Source of the DNA: Thermomonas haemolytica
GTDB lineage: Bacteria; Pseudomonadota; Gammaproteobacteria; Xanthomonadales; Xanthomonadaceae
Direction of reading: 5' to 3'
Assembly (NCBI RefSeq): GCF_004346265.1
Contig: NZ_SMAP01000002.1
Location: 248,001-312,000 of the forward strand
DNA length: 64,000 nucleotides
The notes beneath the pieces were generated by a model that was given only the letters and a program-made list of their open reading frames with translations, searched no databases and was not told the DNA's origin. Position 1 is the first letter of the stretch. The number at the start of each line of letters is the position of its first letter. A program made the translations under genes and the position numbers. Of this stretch, positions 50,158 through 64,000 are shown piece after piece.

Positions 50158-50547
50158 TCACTTCGGAGCGAGCGGCTCCGGCGTGGTGTGACCGGCTTCG
50201 GCCACGTCCACCCAATCTGCGGGCGTCAACACCGGCAGGCCATAGGCGAGGCGGGCCTTGTCGCACTGCGGGCTGGGCCGGCCGAATTCCCACGAGGCAT
50301 CGACTTCGCGGCAGACCGAGGGGCGGTTGGGGTGGATGGTGCAGCGCGAATGGCGGCCGATGTCGGCCTCCAGCGCCACGCAGCGGATCGGCGGTGCGTA
50401 GGTGCCGCGCATGCACAGGCGGTGGGCGTCCACGCGCTCGGTGAGCGCGGCCGGCACCCCGCCCGGGGTCACCTCGTCCGATTCCATCCAGTGGAAGGCG
50501 ACGCGGTACTGGGTGCAGCAGGCGCCACAGGTCAGGCAGGGATGCAT
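50158..50547 (-). CDS. YkgJ-family cysteine-cluster protein
   Basis: A 129-residue protein of the YkgJ/UPF0153 type, with the cluster C-x-x-C-x-x-C-C (CLTCGACC) at residues 4-11 and later cysteines (LCMRG, RCVALE, RCTIHPNRPSVC) that may bind Zn or an Fe-S cluster. Function is unknown. The start is the ATG at 50547. It is divergent from oleC with 111 bases between, and 121 bases from the SDR gene. Confidence 0.85.
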   Translation of the reverse strand: MHPCLTCGACCTQYRVAFHWMESDEVTPGGVPAALTERVDAHRLCMRGTYAPPIRCVALEADIGRHSRCTIHPNRPSVCREVDASWEFGRPSPQCDKARLAYGLPVLTPADWVDVAEAGHTTPEPLAPK

Positions 50548-50646
50548 GCGGGCGGGCCGGGCGGTGCGCGGCGGAAGCGGCGGGGCCGCGATTGTTGGCC
50601 GCTGCCGCGCGCCGTGCAAGGGGCGGCGCGGGTGGCGGGCGCGGGC

Positions 50647-50652
50647 GATAAT
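50647..50652 (+). promoter_or_regulatory. -10 box of oleC, leaderless layout
   Basis: GATAAT ends exactly 6 bases before the oleC ATG. Confidence 0.5.
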
Positions 50653-50658
50653 GCCGGC

Positions 50659-52314
50659 ATGAGCGAACCCTGCAACATCGCCGCGGCGCTGCCGCATCTG
50701 GCGCGCGAGCGTCCCGGCCAGGTGGCCATGCGCTGCCCCGGCGCGGGCGGCCGCTACGACCTGGCGTTGACCTATGCCGAGCTGGACGCGCGCAGCGATG
50801 CGATCGCCGCGGGCCTGGCCCGGCGCGGGATCGTGCGCGGCACCCGCACGGTGGTGATGGTGCGGCCCACGCCGGAGTTCTTCCTGTTGATGTTCGCGCT
50901 GTTCAAGGCCGGCGCGGTGCCGGTGCTGGTGGACCCCGGGATCGACAAGCGCGCGCTCAGGCAATGCCTGGACGAGGCGCAGCCGCAGGCGTTCATCGGC
51001 ATCCCGCTGGCGATGCTGGCCAAGGCGCTGCTGGGCTGGGCGCGTGCGGCGCGGGTGCGCATCACCACCGGGCGCTGGCCGCTGCTGGCGGATGCAACCC
51101 TGGCCCAGGTCGAGGCCGAGGGCACCGGCGCCGGGCCGCAGCTGGCCGCGACCGAGGGCGAAGAGGTGGCCGCGATTTTGTTCACCAGCGGCAGCACCGG
51201 CGTGCCCAAGGGCGTGGTGTACCGGCACCGGCATTTCGTGGCGCAGATCGAAATGCTGCGCGCGGCGTTCGCGATCGCCCCCGGCGGGGTGGATTTCCCC
51301 ACCTTCCCGCCGTTCGCGCTGTTCGATCCGGCCCTCGGCCTGACCAGCATCATCCCCGACATGGACCCCACGCGCCCGGCGCGCGCCGACCCGCGCAAGC
51401 TGCATGCCGCGATCGCGCGTTTCGGTGCCGACCAGCTGTTCGGCTCGCCGGCCCTGATGCGCGTGTTGGCCGATCACGGCCAGCCGCTGCCCACCCTGCG
51501 CCGGGTCACCAGCGCCGGCGCGCCGGTGCCGCCCGAGGTGGTCGAGAAAATGCTGGCGCTATTGCCGCCGCAGGCGCAGTTCTGGACGCCCTACGGCGCC
51601 ACCGAATGCCTGCCGGTGGCGGTGATCGAGGGCCGCGAGCTGTTGACCTTGCGCGCGCGCACCGAGGCCGGCGCCGGCACCTGCGTCGGACGCCCGGTGG
51701 CAGGCAATACGGTGCGCATCATCCGCATCGATGATGATGCGATCCCGGAGTGGCATGACGGCCTGCAAGTCGCGCCGGGGCAGGTGGGCGAGATCACGGT
51801 CGCCGGGCCCAGCGCCACCGATGCCTACTTCAACCGCGAGGCGCAGACCGCGCTGGCCAAGATCCGCGAAGCCCTGCCCGGCGGCGGCGAGCGCATCGTG
51901 CACCGCATGGGCGATCTCGGCTGGTTCGACGGCGAGGGCCGGCTGTGGTTCTGCGGGCGCAAGTCGCAGCGGGTCGTCGTCGATGCGGCCACGACCTTGT
52001 GCACGGAACAGGTCGAACCCGTGTTCAACACCCATCCCGAGGTGGCGCGCAGCGCGCTGGTCGGGGTGGGGGCGAAGGGCGCGCAGGTGCCGGTGCTGTG
52101 CGTGGAATTGAAGCGCGGCATCGACAAGCGCGAATGGCCGCGCATCGAAAACGAATTGCGCCAGCTTGCCGATGGCTTCGTGCATACCGCGAAGGTCGCG
52201 CGGTTCCTGTATTACCCCAAGCCATTCCCGGTGGACATCCGCCACAACGCCAAGATCGGCCGCGAGCGGCTGGCGGCCTGGGCCGCGGCGCGACTGGAGG
52301 ACGCATCCGCATGA
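50659..52314 (+). CDS. oleC: OleC, beta-lactone synthetase
   Basis: AMP-forming enzyme of the ANL superfamily that closes 3-hydroxy-2-alkyl acids (from OleA and OleD) into beta-lactones. The product has 551 residues. The ATP loop is [17 protein letters not shown], the A5 motif YGATECLP and the A7 motif [20 protein letters not shown]. It could be mistaken for a fatty-acyl-CoA ligase, but the overlapping oleD gene makes OleC the right name. The message looks leaderless; the stop overlaps oleD (ATGA). Confidence 0.93.
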
Positions 52315-57637: not shown

Positions 57638-58051
57638 ATGCAGGTCGGCCCGCTTTCCATTCCCGAACACGAACTGGTGGAGCGCTTCGTGCGCGCCTCC
57701 GGGCCGGGCGGGCAGAACGTCAACAAGGTCGCCACCGCGGTCGAGCTGCGCTTCGACGTGGCCGCTTCGCCCGCGCTGCCGGAGATGGTGCGCGCGCGCC
57801 TGCTGGCCCGGCGCGACCGGCGTATGACCACGGACGGGGTGCTGGTGCTGTCGGCGCAGCGCTTCCGCACCCAGGAACGCAACCGCGAGGACGCGCGCGC
57901 GCGGCTGGCCGCCTTCATCGAAAGCGGGCTACGCGCGCCGACGCCGCGCATCGCCACCCGGCCCACCCGCGCCGCGAAGGAGCGCCGCCTCGGCGAGAAG
58001 CGCGTGCGCGCCGCGCGCAAGCAGGGCCGCAGTGGGCGGGGCTGGGAATGA
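57638..58051 (+). CDS. arfB: Alternative ribosome-rescue factor ArfB (YaeJ)
   Basis: A 137-residue peptidyl-tRNA hydrolase that frees stalled ribosomes on broken mRNAs. The release-factor GGQ motif appears in RASGPGGQNVNK. The basic C-terminal tail (KERRLGEKRVRAARKQGRSG) fits into the empty mRNA channel as in E. coli YaeJ (140 residues). It starts 10 bases after truC and its stop overlaps the acyltransferase start. Confidence 0.93.
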   Translation: MQVGPLSIPEHELVERFVRASGPGGQNVNKVATAVELRFDVAASPALPEMVRARLLARRDRRMTTDGVLVLSAQRFRTQERNREDARARLAAFIESGLRAPTPRIATRPTRAAKERRLGEKRVRAARKQGRSGRGWE

Positions 58052-58668
58052 ACGGCGACGCGCACAACGGGGTGGTACCGGCGCTGCCGCCGCGGGTGCC
58101 GCGGATGCCGCACGGGCGGTTCGCGCCCTGGTTGGGGCGGACGGTGCTGCGGCTGGGCGGCTGGCGGGTGGAGGGCGAACTGCCAGACATTCCCAAGGCC
58201 GTGGTGATCGCCGCGCCGCATTCGTCCAACTGGGACGGCTTCTGGGGCATCGCGGCCAAGCTGGCGCTGGGGATCCGGCTGTCGATCCTGGGCAAGCACA
58301 CCCTGTTCCGCATCCCGCTGCTGGCCCCCTTGCTGCGCTGGCAGGGGGTGATTCCGGTCAACCGCGCCGCCCCGCAGGGGGTGGTGGAGCAGGCGGTGGC
58401 GGCCATGCGTGCGCGCGAGGTGATCTGGTATGCGATGGCGCCGGAAGGCACCCGCCGCCAGGTGGCGCAGTGGAAGCCGGGGTTCTGGCGGATCGCGCAT
58501 GCGGCGCAGGTGCCGGTGGTGGTGGCCGCGTTCGACTACCCGCGGCGCCGGATCGTGCTCGGCCCGGCGTTTGCCACCAGCGGCGACATGGCGGCGGACA
58601 TCGCGGGCATCCAGCGCTGGTACGCGCCGTTCCGGGGCCGCCACCACGACGTGGTGCAGCCCGGCTGA
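58048..58668 (+). CDS. PlsC-type lysophospholipid acyltransferase family protein
   Basis: A 206-residue acyltransferase with the catalytic H-x4-D motif (APHSSNWDGFWG), the second block VIPVNR and the third APEGTRR, where the usual F-P-E-G-T is A-P-E-G-T. It resembles the short 1-acylglycerol-3-phosphate acyltransferase-like proteins; the true acceptor is unknown. It overlaps arfB by four bases. Attachment to the inner membrane is expected through a hydrophobic patch rather than a clear span. Confidence 0.87.
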   Translation: MNGDAHNGVVPALPPRVPRMPHGRFAPWLGRTVLRLGGWRVEGELPDIPKAVVIAAPHSSNWDGFWGIAAKLALGIRLSILGKHTLFRIPLLAPLLRWQGVIPVNRAAPQGVVEQAVAAMRAREVIWYAMAPEGTRRQVAQWKPGFWRIAHAAQVPVVVAAFDYPRRRIVLGPAFATSGDMAADIAGIQRWYAPFRGRHHDVVQPG

Positions 58669-58687
58669 ATGCGGTCGCCCCGCGGCC

Positions 58688-58712
58688 GGAACTGACGCAG
58701 TGCGTCAGTTCC
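58688..58712. promoter_or_regulatory. Perfect 25-base palindrome, candidate activator site
   Basis: Arms GGAACTGACGCA and TGCGTCAGTTCC flank a single central G at 58700. It has no T-run and lies about 50 bases upstream of the sigma-54 -24 element, the kind of place where an enhancer-binding protein would sit. As RNA it could also fold into a stem at the end of the acyltransferase message. Confidence 0.6.
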
Positions 58713-58761
58713 ACTTCCAGAATTTCATGAATTTCCCGTGGCAAACCCGCGACTCCGGGTT

Positions 58762-58777
58762 TGGCATGGGAATTGCG
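58762..58777 (+). promoter_or_regulatory. Sigma-54 (RpoN) promoter
   Basis: TGGCATGGGAATTGCG matches the consensus TGGCAC-N5-TTGC except C to T in the first block. GG (58763-58764) and GC (58775-58776) are separated by exactly 10 bases as required. Transcription would start near 58788, reading into the HEAT-repeat gene. Confidence 0.7.
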
Positions 58778-59031
58778 TCGCAGTTTTCGCGTGCGCCGTG
58801 TGCGCGCGCCGGGATACCGCCCCGCAAGGCCCTTCCGGGCGGCGCGCGCTGCGTGCGGCCGGGAGTAGTGCGGCTGGCGGGAAATGAGGGCAGTGCGGCG
58901 GCATCAGGTGCGTCGATGGGTACGGAAAGTTAAGGGAGCAGCAGCGGTTTGAATCGGTCATGGCCAGCGATGGAAGGTGTCGGGCGGCGCGCATGCGCGC
59001 GGCTGGCATTGGCGCGCGCGGAGGCCGGCCG

Positions 59032-60105
59032 ATGAACGTCTTCGACCTGCTCTACAGCAGCGACCCGCGGGTGGTGTTCGCGTTCTGGGTGGGCCTGAGC
59101 ATGACCGTGGCCTCGCTGGTTCTGTTCGTGGCGGTGCTGGTGCTGCGCCGGCTGGCGCAGCGGCGCGAGCGCCAGCACCAGCAGGCCGTCGCGCGCTGGC
59201 GGGCACTGCTGGAGGACGCGATGCGCGACGGCCTGCCCGCGCGGCTGCCGCTGCTGCTCGAGTACGAGATGACCGGTTTCATGGAGGCTTGGAACGCGCT
59301 GCACGAGCTGCCGCAGGGCGTGGACAACCTGGGCATGCACCAGCTGGCGTGGGAAGTCGGGCTGGCGCCGAAGCTGGAAAAGATCGCCAGCAGCGGCCGC
59401 TTCCATGACCGGGTGATGGCGATCATCGCGCTCGGCCACCTGCGCAGCGTGTCCAGCTTCAGCCGGATCGAGCCGCTGCTGGACGACCCCAGCCCGATCG
59501 TCTCGATCAGCGCCGCGCGCGCCTTGATGCGGATCGATGCCGCACGCGCGGTGGAACGGGTGGTGCCGCAGATCGAGGCGCGCCAGGACTGGGTGGACGG
59601 CGGCGTGGCGCAGATCCTGTCGGAAACCGATGCCGAGGTGGTGCAGGGCCCGCTGAGCGGCGCCGCGCTGCGCGCCAACGACGAGGTGGCGCCGCGCATG
59701 GTGCGTTTCCTGGCCGGGGTCAGCCCGCAGGCGGCGGCCCCGGTGATCCGCCGCATCCTGTCCGAGCCGCACGACGAGCACCTGGTCTCGACCTGCCTGC
59801 AGGTGATGACCGAGGCCGCCGACCTCGACAAGGTGCGGCCACTGCTGGCGCATCCGCGCTGGCACGTGCGCATGCACGCGGCGGCGGCGCTGGGCCGGCT
59901 GGGCAATGCGCGCGATGCCGAGGCGCTGCTGCCGCTGCTGGGCGACACCCAGTGGTGGGTGCGCTACCGCAGCGCGCAGGCGCTGCAGCACCTGCTGGGC
60001 GACGACGAGGCGCTGGCGCGCATCCGCGAACGCCAGCAGGACCGCTACGCGCGCGACATCCTCACCCAGGTGCTGGCCGAGCAACACCTGCAGGTGGCGG
60101 CATGA
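59032..60105 (+). CDS. Membrane-anchored HEAT-repeat protein
   Basis: A 357-residue protein with one N-terminal membrane span (about 12-36) and a charged linker. An array of helical repeats of HEAT type then runs to the end (for example DRVMAIIALGHLRSV, VSISAARALMRIDA, WHVRMHAAAALGRLGNA, WVRYRSAQALQHLLG). Such solenoids bind other proteins. GGAGG at 59020-59024 sets the start. Its stop overlaps the glycosyltransferase start, so it is likely a partner or regulator of that enzyme. It is the first gene behind the sigma-54 promoter. Confidence 0.83.
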   Translation: MNVFDLLYSSDPRVVFAFWVGLSMTVASLVLFVAVLVLRRLAQRRERQHQQAVARWRALLEDAMRDGLPARLPLLLEYEMTGFMEAWNALHELPQGVDNLGMHQLAWEVGLAPKLEKIASSGRFHDRVMAIIALGHLRSVSSFSRIEPLLDDPSPIVSISAARALMRIDAARAVERVVPQIEARQDWVDGGVAQILSETDAEVVQGPLSGAALRANDEVAPRMVRFLAGVSPQAAAPVIRRILSEPHDEHLVSTCLQVMTEAADLDKVRPLLAHPRWHVRMHAAAALGRLGNARDAEALLPLLGDTQWWVRYRSAQALQHLLGDDEALARIRERQQDRYARDILTQVLAEQHLQVAA

Positions 60106-61634
60106 GCCTCGCCGCCCAGGCCCTGGCCATGCCCGCCATCCCGGCCGCGCTGGCGACCACCCTGGAGGCCCTGCAGTGGGCCTTCCTGCTGTATTTCGTC
60201 AGCATCAACGCGGTGTACCTGGGGCTGAACTTCATCGCGATGTTCGCGATCCTGCGCTACACCCGCGAGCACGGCGCCAGCTTCCGCCTGCGCAATTTCG
60301 CCGAGTACCAGCCGCCGGTCAGCATCCTGGTGCCGGCCTGCAACGAGGAAAAGACCATCGTCGCCACCGTGCGCTCGCTGCTGCGGCTGGGCTATCCCAA
60401 CTTCGAGGTGGTGGTCGTCAACGACGGCTCGCGCGATGGCACCCTGCGCGCGGTGGTGGAGGAGTTCGGGCTGGTGGAGTTCCCGGAGGCGTACCGCGCG
60501 CGCCTGAAGACCGCGCCGGTCAAGCGCATCTTCGTCTCCCCCGGCAACGGCCGGGTGCGCCTGGTGGACAAGGAGAACGGCGGCAAGGCGGACGCGCTGA
60601 ACGCCGGCATCAACACCGCCCGCTACCCGCTGTTCTGCGTGGTCGATGCCGACTGCATCCTGCAGGAGGACAGCCTGGCGCGGGTGGTGCAGCCGTTCCT
60701 GGAGGACTCGCGGATGATCGCCGCCGGCGGCGTGATCCGCATCGTCAACGGCTGCAAGGTCAAGGACGGGCTGCTGTCGGAGATCGACCTGCCGGACCGG
60801 CTGCTGCCGCTGACGCAGACCCTGGAATACCTGCGCGCGTTCCTGTTCGGGCGCCTGGGCTGGTCGCCGCTGAACGCGCTGCTGATCATCTCCGGCGCGT
60901 TCGGCGTGTTCTACAAGGAGCGCGTGATCGCCGCCGGCGGCTACAAGAGCGACCTGGTCGGCGAGGACATGGAAATGGTGGTGCGCCTGCACAACCAGAT
61001 GCGCGAGGAGAAACGGCCCTACCGGATCGCGTTCGTGCCCGACCCGATCTGCTGGACCGAGGTGCCGTCCGACCTGCGCTCGCTGTACAACCAGCGCGTG
61101 CGCTGGCAGCAGGGCCTGGCCGAGAGCCTGTTCGGGAACTGGCGGCTGATGGCCCGGCGCAACGGCGGCATGGTCGGCTGGGTGGCGTACCCGTTCATGC
61201 TGCTGTTCGAATGCCTGGGGCCGCTGATCGAAGTGTTCGGGTATTTCTCGGTGATCGTGCTTGGGCTGGCCGGCATGCTGTCGCCGCAGGCGTTTTTCGT
61301 GTTCCTGTTCGCCTCGGTCGGGCTGGGGATCCTGCTGTCGGTGAATGCGATGATGCTAGAAGAAATCTCGTTCCACCTCTACCCGCGCCCTGGCCAGCAG
61401 CTGAAGCTGTTCCTGGTGGCGGTGCTGGAGAACTTCGGCTACCGCCAGATGATGTCGCTGTTCCGGGTGGTCGGGCTGCTGCGCTGGCTGGTGCGCATGC
61501 TCCGGCTGCGGCGGCGCTCGCACTGGGGCCACATGCGCCGCAACGGCGACTGGCACGAGGACGACCCCGGGGAGGCAGGCGCCGGCGCCGCCGCTTCCCG
61601 TCCCCTGCAATCCGCGCCGGGAGCGACCCGATGA
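60102..61634 (+). CDS. Processive family-2 glycosyltransferase
   Basis: A 510-residue inner-membrane enzyme of the cellulose/PNAG/hyaluronan synthase type. One N-terminal hydrophobic region (about 22-52) precedes the GT-A domain, which has VNDGS (D108), D-A-D (182-184), G-E-D (287-289) and the processive motif Q331-x-x-R334-W335. Several C-terminal membrane segments (about 358-415 and a re-entrant stretch to 465) follow. The polymer is unknown. No PilZ domain is visible, so direct c-di-GMP binding is unlikely. It is coupled by overlaps to both neighbours. Confidence 0.9.
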   Translation: MSLAAQALAMPAIPAALATTLEALQWAFLLYFVSINAVYLGLNFIAMFAILRYTREHGASFRLRNFAEYQPPVSILVPACNEEKTIVATVRSLLRLGYPNFEVVVVNDGSRDGTLRAVVEEFGLVEFPEAYRARLKTAPVKRIFVSPGNGRVRLVDKENGGKADALNAGINTARYPLFCVVDADCILQEDSLARVVQPFLEDSRMIAAGGVIRIVNGCKVKDGLLSEIDLPDRLLPLTQTLEYLRAFLFGRLGWSPLNALLIISGAFGVFYKERVIAAGGYKSDLVGEDMEMVVRLHNQMREEKRPYRIAFVPDPICWTEVPSDLRSLYNQRVRWQQGLAESLFGNWRLMARRNGGMVGWVAYPFMLLFECLGPLIEVFGYFSVIVLGLAGMLSPQAFFVFLFASVGLGILLSVNAMMLEEISFHLYPRPGQQLKLFLVAVLENFGYRQMMSLFRVVGLLRWLVRMLRLRRRSHWGHMRRNGDWHEDDPGEAGAGAAASRPLQSAPGATR

Positions 61635-62914
61635 TCCTGCTGTCCCCGGCCGTGCTGCAGGCGGCCGCCCTCCTCGCGGGCAGTCCCGCTGCGACCGCGC
61701 CGTTGCAGGTCGCGCCGCCCGTGGCCACCGCGCAGGAAGATGCCGAGACCTTGCGTCTGCGCCAGGCGCGCGAACTGGCCACGTCCGGCGACCCGGGCAA
61801 GCGCGCGCAGGCGCTGGCCCTGTACGCGGCGATGCTGCAGGACTCGTCCGGCAACAGCGACGTGCTGCTGGCGCGCGGCCGCACCTATGCCTGGGACGGG
61901 CGCTATGCCGAGGCCGAGGTCGACCTGCGCGCGGTGACCGCGGCCAAGCCCGGCTATGCCGATGCCTGGTCGGCGCTGGGCGATTTGTACCTGTGGAGCG
62001 ACCGTCCGCGCGAAGCGGCGGCGGCGTATGCGCGCTGGGTCGCGCTGGCGCCGACGGACGCCGCTGCGTATCTGGCCCGTGGGCGCGCCTGGCGCGCCGC
62101 CGGCGAGCGCGATGCCGCGCGTGCGGATTTCGATGCAGCCGCGGCGCACGGCGCCGATCCGGCGCAGGTGGCCGCGCTGCTTGCCAGCCTGCGTCCGGCC
62201 GCCGCGCCCGAGGCGCTGCGCAGCGACGGCTACCGCTGGCAGCTACGGGCCGGGCTCGACCGCACCGCCTTCAGCGGCGGCCGCGATGCCTGGACCGATG
62301 CCGGCGTTTCGCTGCGGCGCTATTTCCCGCGCGGCTCGCTGGCGCTGGAATGGCTGAGCGCCGACCACTTCCGCCAGCGCGACGATGCCTGGGCGCTGGA
62401 TGGCTACGCCAGCCTGTGGGCACGCGCCTACGCCAACCTGCGCTACCAGCAGGGCCCGGCGTCCGGGGTGCTGCCGCGCACGGCGTGGCGGGCGGAGCTG
62501 TTCCAGGGCGTGGGCAGCGGCTGGGAGCTGTCGGCCAGCGTGGACCACCTGCGCTTTTCCACCACCACCGCGTTCTACGGGGTGGGGGTGGGCCGCTACT
62601 GGGGCGACTGGTACGCCCGCTACAAGCTGCAGCACGTGCCCGGCGTGGGCTCCGGCAGCTGGAGCCAGCGCGTGCAGCTGCGCAACTACTACCACGGCAA
62701 TGCCGACGACTACTGGGAAGTCAGCGCCGGCCACGGCCGCAGCGTGGACCTCGACCGCGGTGGCGCGCTGGTGCGCAACAGCAATGCCGTGCTGGGGGTG
62801 TCGTGGGTGCGCTATTTCGGCAGCTGGGGCCTCAAGCTCGGCGCCGGCTATGCCGACGATGCCGACGGGTTCAACGAGCGCCAGCTCTCCTTCGCGCTGT
62901 ACCGACGCTGGTGA
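61631..62914 (+). CDS. TPR plus YaiO-type outer-membrane beta-barrel protein
   Basis: A 427-residue protein. A weak signal-like start is followed by TPR-like helices (about 45-190, with LARGRTYAWDGRYAEAEVDL and ALGDLYLWSDRPREAAAAYA). A C-terminal YaiO-type barrel of alternating aromatic strands ends in W (NERQLSFALYRRW). TPR plus a barrel is the plan of polysaccharide export proteins such as PgaA and BcsC. It probably carries the product of the adjacent synthase across the outer membrane. It overlaps the synthase gene and the next gene. Confidence 0.85.
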   Translation: MILLSPAVLQAAALLAGSPAATAPLQVAPPVATAQEDAETLRLRQARELATSGDPGKRAQALALYAAMLQDSSGNSDVLLARGRTYAWDGRYAEAEVDLRAVTAAKPGYADAWSALGDLYLWSDRPREAAAAYARWVALAPTDAAAYLARGRAWRAAGERDAARADFDAAAAHGADPAQVAALLASLRPAAAPEALRSDGYRWQLRAGLDRTAFSGGRDAWTDAGVSLRRYFPRGSLALEWLSADHFRQRDDAWALDGYASLWARAYANLRYQQGPASGVLPRTAWRAELFQGVGSGWELSASVDHLRFSTTTAFYGVGVGRYWGDWYARYKLQHVPGVGSGSWSQRVQLRNYYHGNADDYWEVSAGHGRSVDLDRGGALVRNSNAVLGVSWVRYFGSWGLKLGAGYADDADGFNERQLSFALYRRW

Positions 62915-64000
62915 GGCGGGATAACGCACCCCGGCCCGCGGACGACGGGCGCGAAGGCGCGGGCGCACGCCTGCTGGCGTGGTTGCCGGCGCTGCTGGTG
63001 GCGCAGCTGGTGCTGGCGCTGTGGGCGGGCGCGCGTGCGCTGCCGCCGGGCGCGGGCGTGGCGGCGTGGGCGCTGGCCGTGGCCGGGCAGCTGCTGTTCC
63101 TGCTGCGCGCGCTGCCGCTGCTGCTGCCGGCCAGCCTCGCGCTGGCCGCGCTCCCGGCGCGGCGCTGGGCGCTGCTGGGGGTCGGCGCCTGCTGGGCGCT
63201 GTTCCTGCTGGCGCAGGCGCTGCTGGAGCAGTACTTCCTCACCGCCGGCGTGGCGCTCGGCGCCGACCTGTTCGGCTACCGGCTGGAGGAAATCCGCACC
63301 ACCCTCGGCGGTGCCGGCGGCGAGCTCGGCCTCATCGGCGCGGTCGGCCTGCTGCTGCCGCTGCTGGTGCTGGCGGTGCTGCTCGCCTGGCGCGCACGCC
63401 GCCCTCGGCCGGCGCGGCGTGGCGTGCTGGCGGTGCTGGTGCTAGCCGGGCTGGCGGCCTGGGCGCTGCCGCTGGCGCCCGGCGTTTCCCTGCTGCGCGG
63501 CGAGGCGGTGCGCGCCGCGGCCACCAGCAAGGGGGCCTATTTCGTGGCCGACAGCCTGCGCTGGTGGCGCGCACGGGACATCCCCGCGATCGCCAGCGCC
63601 AGCGCCGCCGCGCCGACGGCGACCGTGGCGGCGGGCGGCGATCCGGCCTATCCCTTCCTGCATGCGGACGCCACCCCGGATGCGCTGGGCGCGTACTTCG
63701 GCCCCACCCGCGACGGCCGCCCGCCGAACGTGGTGGTGATCGTGGTCGAGGGCCTGGGCCGCTCGTTCTCCGGCCCGGAGGCGGCGCTCGGCAGCTTCAC
63801 CCCGTTCCTGGACGAACTGGTCGGGCGCAGCCTGTACTTCGACAACTTCCTCGCCAACCAGGGCCGCACCTTCGGCGTGCTGCCCTCGCTGCTGGCCTCG
63901 CTGCCGATGGCCGAGCAGGGCTTCACCGCGCTGGGCGCGGACATGCCCGCGCATGCCGGCCTGTTCAACGTGCTGCAGCGCCAGGGCTACCACACAGCGT
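62911..64000 (+). CDS. LTA-synthase-like sulfatase/phosphotransferase, N-terminal part (cut by window end)
   Basis: The open frame begins with a GTG overlapping the previous stop and runs off the window after 363 codons. The first 200 residues hold about five membrane segments. A periplasmic alkaline-phosphatase-superfamily domain then begins, with metal ligand E280 in VVVIVVEGLGRS and the nucleophile T320 in NQGRTFGVLPSLLASLP. Such enzymes transfer phosphoglycerol or phosphoethanolamine to glycans or lipids. In this operon it may decorate the polymer made by the upstream synthase. Confidence 0.85.
   Translation, partial: MRRDNAPRPADDGREGAGARLLAWLPALLVAQLVLALWAGARALPPGAGVAAWALAVAGQLLFLLRALPLLLPASLALAALPARRWALLGVGACWALFLLAQALLEQYFLTAGVALGADLFGYRLEEIRTTLGGAGGELGLIGAVGLLLPLLVLAVLLAWRARRPRPARRGVLAVLVLAGLAAWALPLAPGVSLLRGEAVRAAATSKGAYFVADSLRWWRARDIPAIASASAAAPTATVAAGGDPAYPFLHADATPDALGAYFGPTRDGRPPNVVVIVVEGLGRSFSGPEAALGSFTPFLDELVGRSLYFDNFLANQGRTFGVLPSLLASLPMAEQGFTALGADMPAHAGLFNVLQRQGYHTA

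Follow-up and report, generated by a model that had tools for sequence, protein, structure and literature searches.

A putative PilR box and sigma-54 promoter upstream of a probable glycan operon in Thermomonas haemolytica

The genome of Thermomonas haemolytica (2.59 Mb) contains, upstream of an operon for a probable surface or secreted glycan, a sigma-54 promoter that is very likely activated by PilR, which would make the operon a member of the PilR regulon. This reading is based on a box, TGACG-N5-CGTCA, that is found at a near-fixed distance from the sigma-54 core before the operon in two genera (g1 and g17), and on the occurrence of the same box before pilA. The window, i.e., the whole stretch of 64,000 nucleotides that was analysed, corresponds to C2:248001-312000. 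A preliminary description of this DNA had proposed that the activator is encoded outside the window and that the palindrome is its binding site. Both proposals agree with the sequence comparisons, because the palindrome recurs with up to two mismatches beside pilR and pilA, and the box is present at most scorable pilA promoters and at related operons. With good confidence, the missing activator can now be named as PilR.

The palindrome, the promoter and the operon

The palindrome has the form GGAACTGACGCA-G-TGCGTCAGTTCC, with two perfectly pairing 12-base arms that flank one unpaired base (Table 1). Inverted repeats with 12-base arms and loops of 0-5 bases are expected by chance about 0.16 times per 64 kb at the base composition of the window, and about 0.0009 times in an intergenic stretch of 350 bases. 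Looser matches to the palindrome with up to three mismatches show no excess in the window (one, chance mean 1.01). A gap of 49 bases separates the end of the palindrome from the start of the sigma-54 core TGGCATGGGAATTGC at 58762-58776, which confirms the earlier claim of a 12-base-arm palindrome located about 50 bases from an RpoN promoter with exact spacing. The core fits TGGCAY-N5-TTGC with exact GG-N10-GC spacing, and no other core without mismatches occurs in the window. When one mismatch is tolerated, five cores are counted in the window versus 10.9 expected by chance; as they are rarer than chance, only the exact match is notable. Across the whole genome, 20 exact cores are found versus two for the reversed pattern, and the genome encodes one copy of rpoN as well as AAA+ sigma-54 activators.

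Table 1. Positions of the regulatory elements and genes discussed in the text (window coordinates unless a contig is given).
Feature	Position	Strand	Remarks
Upstream neighbour, PF01553 acyltransferase	58048..58668	+	
25-base palindrome, putative PilR box	58688..58712	.	box common to pilA promoter region
Box core TGACGCAGTGCGTCA	58693-58707		within the palindrome
Imperfect inverted repeat no. 2	58733..58772	.	17-base arms, 88%, 6-base loop; overlaps the -24 element
Sigma-54 -24/-12 promoter TTGGCATGGGAATTGCG	58761..58777	+	exact core match; core also kept at 11/20 related operons analysed
Operon gene 1, HEAT-repeat protein	59032..60105	+	start codon inferred
Operon gene 2, family-2 glycosyltransferase, distantly PgaC/IcaA-like	60102..61634	+	start codon inferred
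Operon gene 3, TPR + YaiO outer-membrane beta-barrel protein	61631..62914	+	
Operon gene 4, sulfatase (PF00884) domain protein	62911..64000	+	start codon uncertain; continues beyond the window to C2:313286
Operon gene 5	C2:313283-314260		overlaps gene 4; 325 residues, no Pfam match

Two further features are seen around the promoter. The imperfect inverted repeat that overlaps the -24 element may serve as another operator; a comparable repeat adjoins the promoter, by eye, in Thermomonas sp. S9 (L161), and a weaker one does so in L163. The bases that follow the -12 GC are GTCG in the window (58775-58782) and GTTAT in most pilA promoters of the genus. In eight of the 12 core-bearing operon promoters (L162-L166, L170, L171 and L179; by eye), the -12 GC is directly followed by (G/A)TCA, and a TGC(G/A)TCA half-box is thus formed over the -12 element.

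Adjacent reading frames of the operon share four bases, with the start of the sulfatase gene being a guess, and these overlaps suggest that the genes form a single transcript. Searching with the glycosyltransferase at E<=1e-100 retrieved relatives at 33 places, distributed over 32 of the 395 family genomes; among named genomes the best match is Thermomonas sp. S9, with 96% identity. Of the 32 places outside the window, 20 were compared together with the window, giving a set of 21 operons, and the 12 omitted places are at most 54% identical. The complete set of five genes is found in the same order in 16 of the 21 operons, and the PF01553 acyltransferase precedes 12 of the 15 other full operons. 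In seven operons (L162, L165, L166 and L168-L171), the promoter and the HEAT gene are separated by an additional gene, whose product is a TPR protein carrying an HC-x5-R sequence, the cysteine-phosphatase signature. This protein has an N-terminal hydrophobic stretch and matches only TPRs in Pfam; its gene is inverted in L172 and was not found before the HEAT gene in the window, L161, L163, L164 and L167. Elsewhere in the window, at 50188-52314, an olefin beta-lactone synthetase is encoded that scores above its NCBIfam cut-off.

Distribution of the box and the core

Upstream of the operon, the core was searched on the coding strand with up to one mismatch, within 2.5 kb of the HEAT gene. It was found in 12 of the 21 operons, including the window, and not in the other nine (L167 from the same genus, L172-L178 and L180). 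A box with up to one mismatch accompanies the core in seven of these 12 operons, versus 0.15% per promoter in shuffled sequences, and in eight of the 12 when two mismatches are allowed; the added case, L164, reaches about 2% in shuffles. The preliminary description had named the absence of both elements from orthologous operons as its refutation; the observed conservation is partial, with most of the core-bearing operons having the box and nine operons having no core. The box is located 66-70 bases upstream of the first T of the promoter in six operons and 80 bases upstream in L168. L166, L170, L171 and L179 show three or four mismatches to the box at 60-85 bp, and by eye the left half TGACG is found upstream in all four. 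In Thermomonas S9, both arms of the palindrome are kept and the centre differs (L161 is the same genome as L031; L031, L032 and L033 correspond to G299, G315 and G057, respectively, and were not counted twice). Among the named genomes, 80 loci were kept, many of them distant, and of the 15 that were scanned 2.2 kb upstream, only L031 has both elements.

The same box is found at pilA. Examination of 34 pilR loci (22 from the genus, 12 from other genera) yielded 16 scorable cases, in which a pilin gene and a sigma-54 core lie within the fetched stretch and the rule; the remaining 18 were left out, among them G081, which shows boxes by eye. Allowing one mismatch in the ten box positions and at most 150 bases to the core, the box is present at 13 of the 16 pilA promoters (12 of 15 when this genome is excluded; shuffles 0.7%), and no box within one mismatch is seen at L190, L198 and L232. 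In several genera it precedes pilA shortly 3' of pilR. At the remaining 19 exact cores of the T. haemolytica genome, some of which may be intragenic rather than promoters, the box is absent.

Within the T. haemolytica genome, a search of all 2.59 Mb for the inner 17 bases of the palindrome, CTGACGCANTGCGTCAG, with up to two mismatches returned one other place, between pilR and the pilA promoter. As about one such match is expected by chance genome-wide, and only about 1e-4 in any one stretch of 300 bp, the weight of this finding rests on its position beside pilR and pilA. The pilA promoter of this genome has its own sigma-54 core with one mismatch and is preceded by a box and a second, less perfect copy of it; close relatives likewise carry the box in tandem before pilA. 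The palindrome alone is little enriched in this genome (22 matches with up to three mismatches versus 13 for the reversed pattern) and in slight excess, irrespective of a promoter, in 25 genomes of the genus (39 versus 24 reversed, up to one mismatch). Of 21 palindrome loci inspected in the genus, L204, L211 and L213 have an exact core no more than about 250 bases away.

A joint scan of the 395 family genomes for the box, a spacing of 48-78 bases and the core identified 64 places in 60 genomes, versus three for the reversed control. Three of the 64 are the glycan operon itself, in G000, G299 and G174. Classification of the other 61 by a script assigned 26 to a pilin-type start within 450 bases. 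Two, both in genus g17 (L305 and L311; one was checked), are located before a different family-2 glycosyltransferase with 28-29% identity, a hint that polysaccharide synthesis was recruited a second time. The remaining 33, which by the script's rule lie before genes of other kinds, include 13 loci from three genera that were read as encoding proteins of 55-67 residues (L269, L270, L274, L276, L278, L282-L284, L306, L307, L310, L312 and L313). These small proteins are 44% identical over 41 residues between two of the genera and similar by eye only in the third, and the three that were tested gave no Pfam match. The 33 also include one locus each before the gene for a spore-coat-U protein (L301) and for a SpaA-fold protein (L287). 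In G212 (L257, C11), at a gap shorter than the scanned range, a box that is perfect over its ten bases and an exact core are followed by the gene for a Reg_prop-GGDEF protein, a candidate for a PilR-controlled diguanylate cyclase.

The preliminary description had also predicted that reuse of the palindrome would define a regulon, and the recurrence at pilR-pilA in this genome, together with the frequent box at pilA promoters of the family, points in this direction. A wider reading of the family-wide distribution is more tentative, and we would give it slightly less than an even chance: PilS-PilR would be a pilus-state-responsive regulator to which additional targets have been attached separately, all via TGACG-N5-CGTCA. 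These targets would comprise the glycan operon, the glycosyltransferase of the other genus, the diguanylate cyclase, the spore-coat-U-type and SpaA-fold proteins and the proteins of 55-67 residues.

Candidate activators of the promoter

The genome encodes sigma-54 activator domains with four strong and three weak matches. One of the strong matches is located on C3, where the flanking kinase matches PF25323 (6TM_PilS) and pilA follows next downstream; a PilS-PilR pair is thus encoded close to pilA. Another is NtrC by the curated family cut-off, a third (C6:112025-112522) adjoins a FleQ domain (C6:112577-112924) in one reading frame, and the fourth lies on C8. A sigma-54 core at a distance of about 5 kb from the latter (L155, G000:C8:9269) carries a separate palindrome, GGTGTCCGCGCGGACACC, and precedes what by eye appears to be an efflux or ABC-transport gene cluster.

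FleQ, a flagellar sigma-54 regulator, acts on exopolysaccharide genes in other bacteria, so that the palindrome might be a FleQ site. In addition to the FleQ domain encoded beside an activator domain on C6, the distribution in genus g1 speaks for this assignment, as FleQ is present in eight of nine operon-bearing genomes and in one of 16 genomes without the operon; common descent is a possible reason for this co-occurrence. However, G237 (100% complete, one contig) and G174 (99%, four contigs) retain both core and box and have no FleQ-domain match. The 50 kb of C6 that surround fleQ contain 13 cores with up to one mismatch; a box with equally few mismatches accompanies none of them within 200 bp, and two have loose boxes with two mismatches. 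The FleQ box from work on Pseudomonas reportedly has oppositely oriented half-sites, and this, like the position of the box next to pilR and pilA, counts against FleQ, which is quite improbable as the activator. Only slightly less so is the use of the box by NtrC, the C8 regulator or an unrecognised protein, with pilA as just a second target. Seven activator matches in one genome leave room for such a regulator, but one of the four strong ones is accounted for as NtrC, the core near the C8 regulator bears GGTGTCCGC-type repeats instead of the box, and in several genera the box goes with pilA near pilR. Moreover, a PilR search of G237 at E<=1e-60 retrieved PilR and one other regulator only, although weaker ones may fall below that threshold.

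Alternatively, the palindrome could be unrelated to the promoter and act in RNA, forming a hairpin or terminating transcription of the upstream acyltransferase gene. It begins 20 bases past the stop codon of this gene, and the 92 bases at 58669-58760, which include it, fold well as RNA (z = -3.65). Nevertheless, a search of 58600-59040 for terminator-like sites with a T-tract found none, and changes in one arm are by eye unmatched in the other in L162-L165, where the left half and the distance to the promoter are kept. Considering also that the box is repeated in tandem before pilA, both here and in close relatives, a role as hairpin is extremely improbable. Consensus spacing alone led us to discard a CRP-like Clp site.

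Activation by PilR is thus the preferred reading. T. haemolytica belongs to the same family as Xylella. For the latter, NtrC and PilR are reported as the only sigma-54 activators, and this pair fits PilR as a conserved activator. For P. aeruginosa, PilS is reported to activate PilR as the inner-membrane PilA pool drops. By analogy, a falling PilA pool upon deployment of pili would cause PilS to activate PilR in T. haemolytica. A PilR dimer would bind the palindrome, subsequently oligomerise, and remodel the RNA polymerase-sigma-54 complex at the promoter, which is predicted to depend on RpoN. Transcription would start near 58788, as judged from the spacing, and proceed through the HEAT, glycosyltransferase, YaiO, sulfatase-fold and last genes, and a secreted glycan would thereby be made along with type IV pili. 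The preliminary description had expected the operon to be switched by one specific signal pathway, for which PilS-PilR is now the candidate.

An orphan sigma-54 promoter thereby gains a likely activator, and the family a testable PilR box by which its PilR regulon becomes searchable in sequence. The predicted coupling of pilus state and glycan production at the level of transcription could account for the onset of matrix production by attached cells.

Relation to known systems

The operon resembles the pga/ica operons for poly-N-acetylglucosamine in combining a PgaC/IcaA-like family-2 synthase with a TPR outer-membrane barrel. It differs in that its PgaC score of 134.1 bits is below the curated cut-off of 422.3, the barrel is of the YaiO type, and HEAT and sulfatase-fold proteins are additionally encoded. 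In the PEP-CTERM/PrsK-PrsR system, a sigma-54-dependent response regulator is linked to exopolysaccharide. Control by such a system was rejected, as the best match in this genome reaches 353.9 bits versus the PrsR cut-off (TIGR02915) of 502.6.

PilS-PilR/pilA systems of P. aeruginosa, Xylella, Xanthomonas oryzae, Azoarcus and Geobacter are alike in their sigma-54 core, upstream sites and location of pilS-pilR near pilA. The target considered here differs from theirs in being a probable glycan operon, and the site also differs, since the hallmarks reported for PilR sites of P. aeruginosa are TGT-N11-AGA and GTCT elements instead of TGACG-N5-CGTCA. PilR targets other than pilA are likewise described for the extended PilR regulons of Geobacter sulfurreducens, Dichelobacter nodosus and P. 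aeruginosa (fleSR); in Geobacter, sites are predicted in front of genes for cell-wall biogenesis. These regulons involve other targets in other genera. The available portions of PMC6058289, PMC8041468, PMC8657755, PMC2725144, PMC3224663, PMC12316311 and PMC3262810 describe neither PilR control of such a glycosyltransferase operon nor this box. The kind of regulation proposed here is therefore already known, while the putative target operon and the predicted box would be new additions to it.
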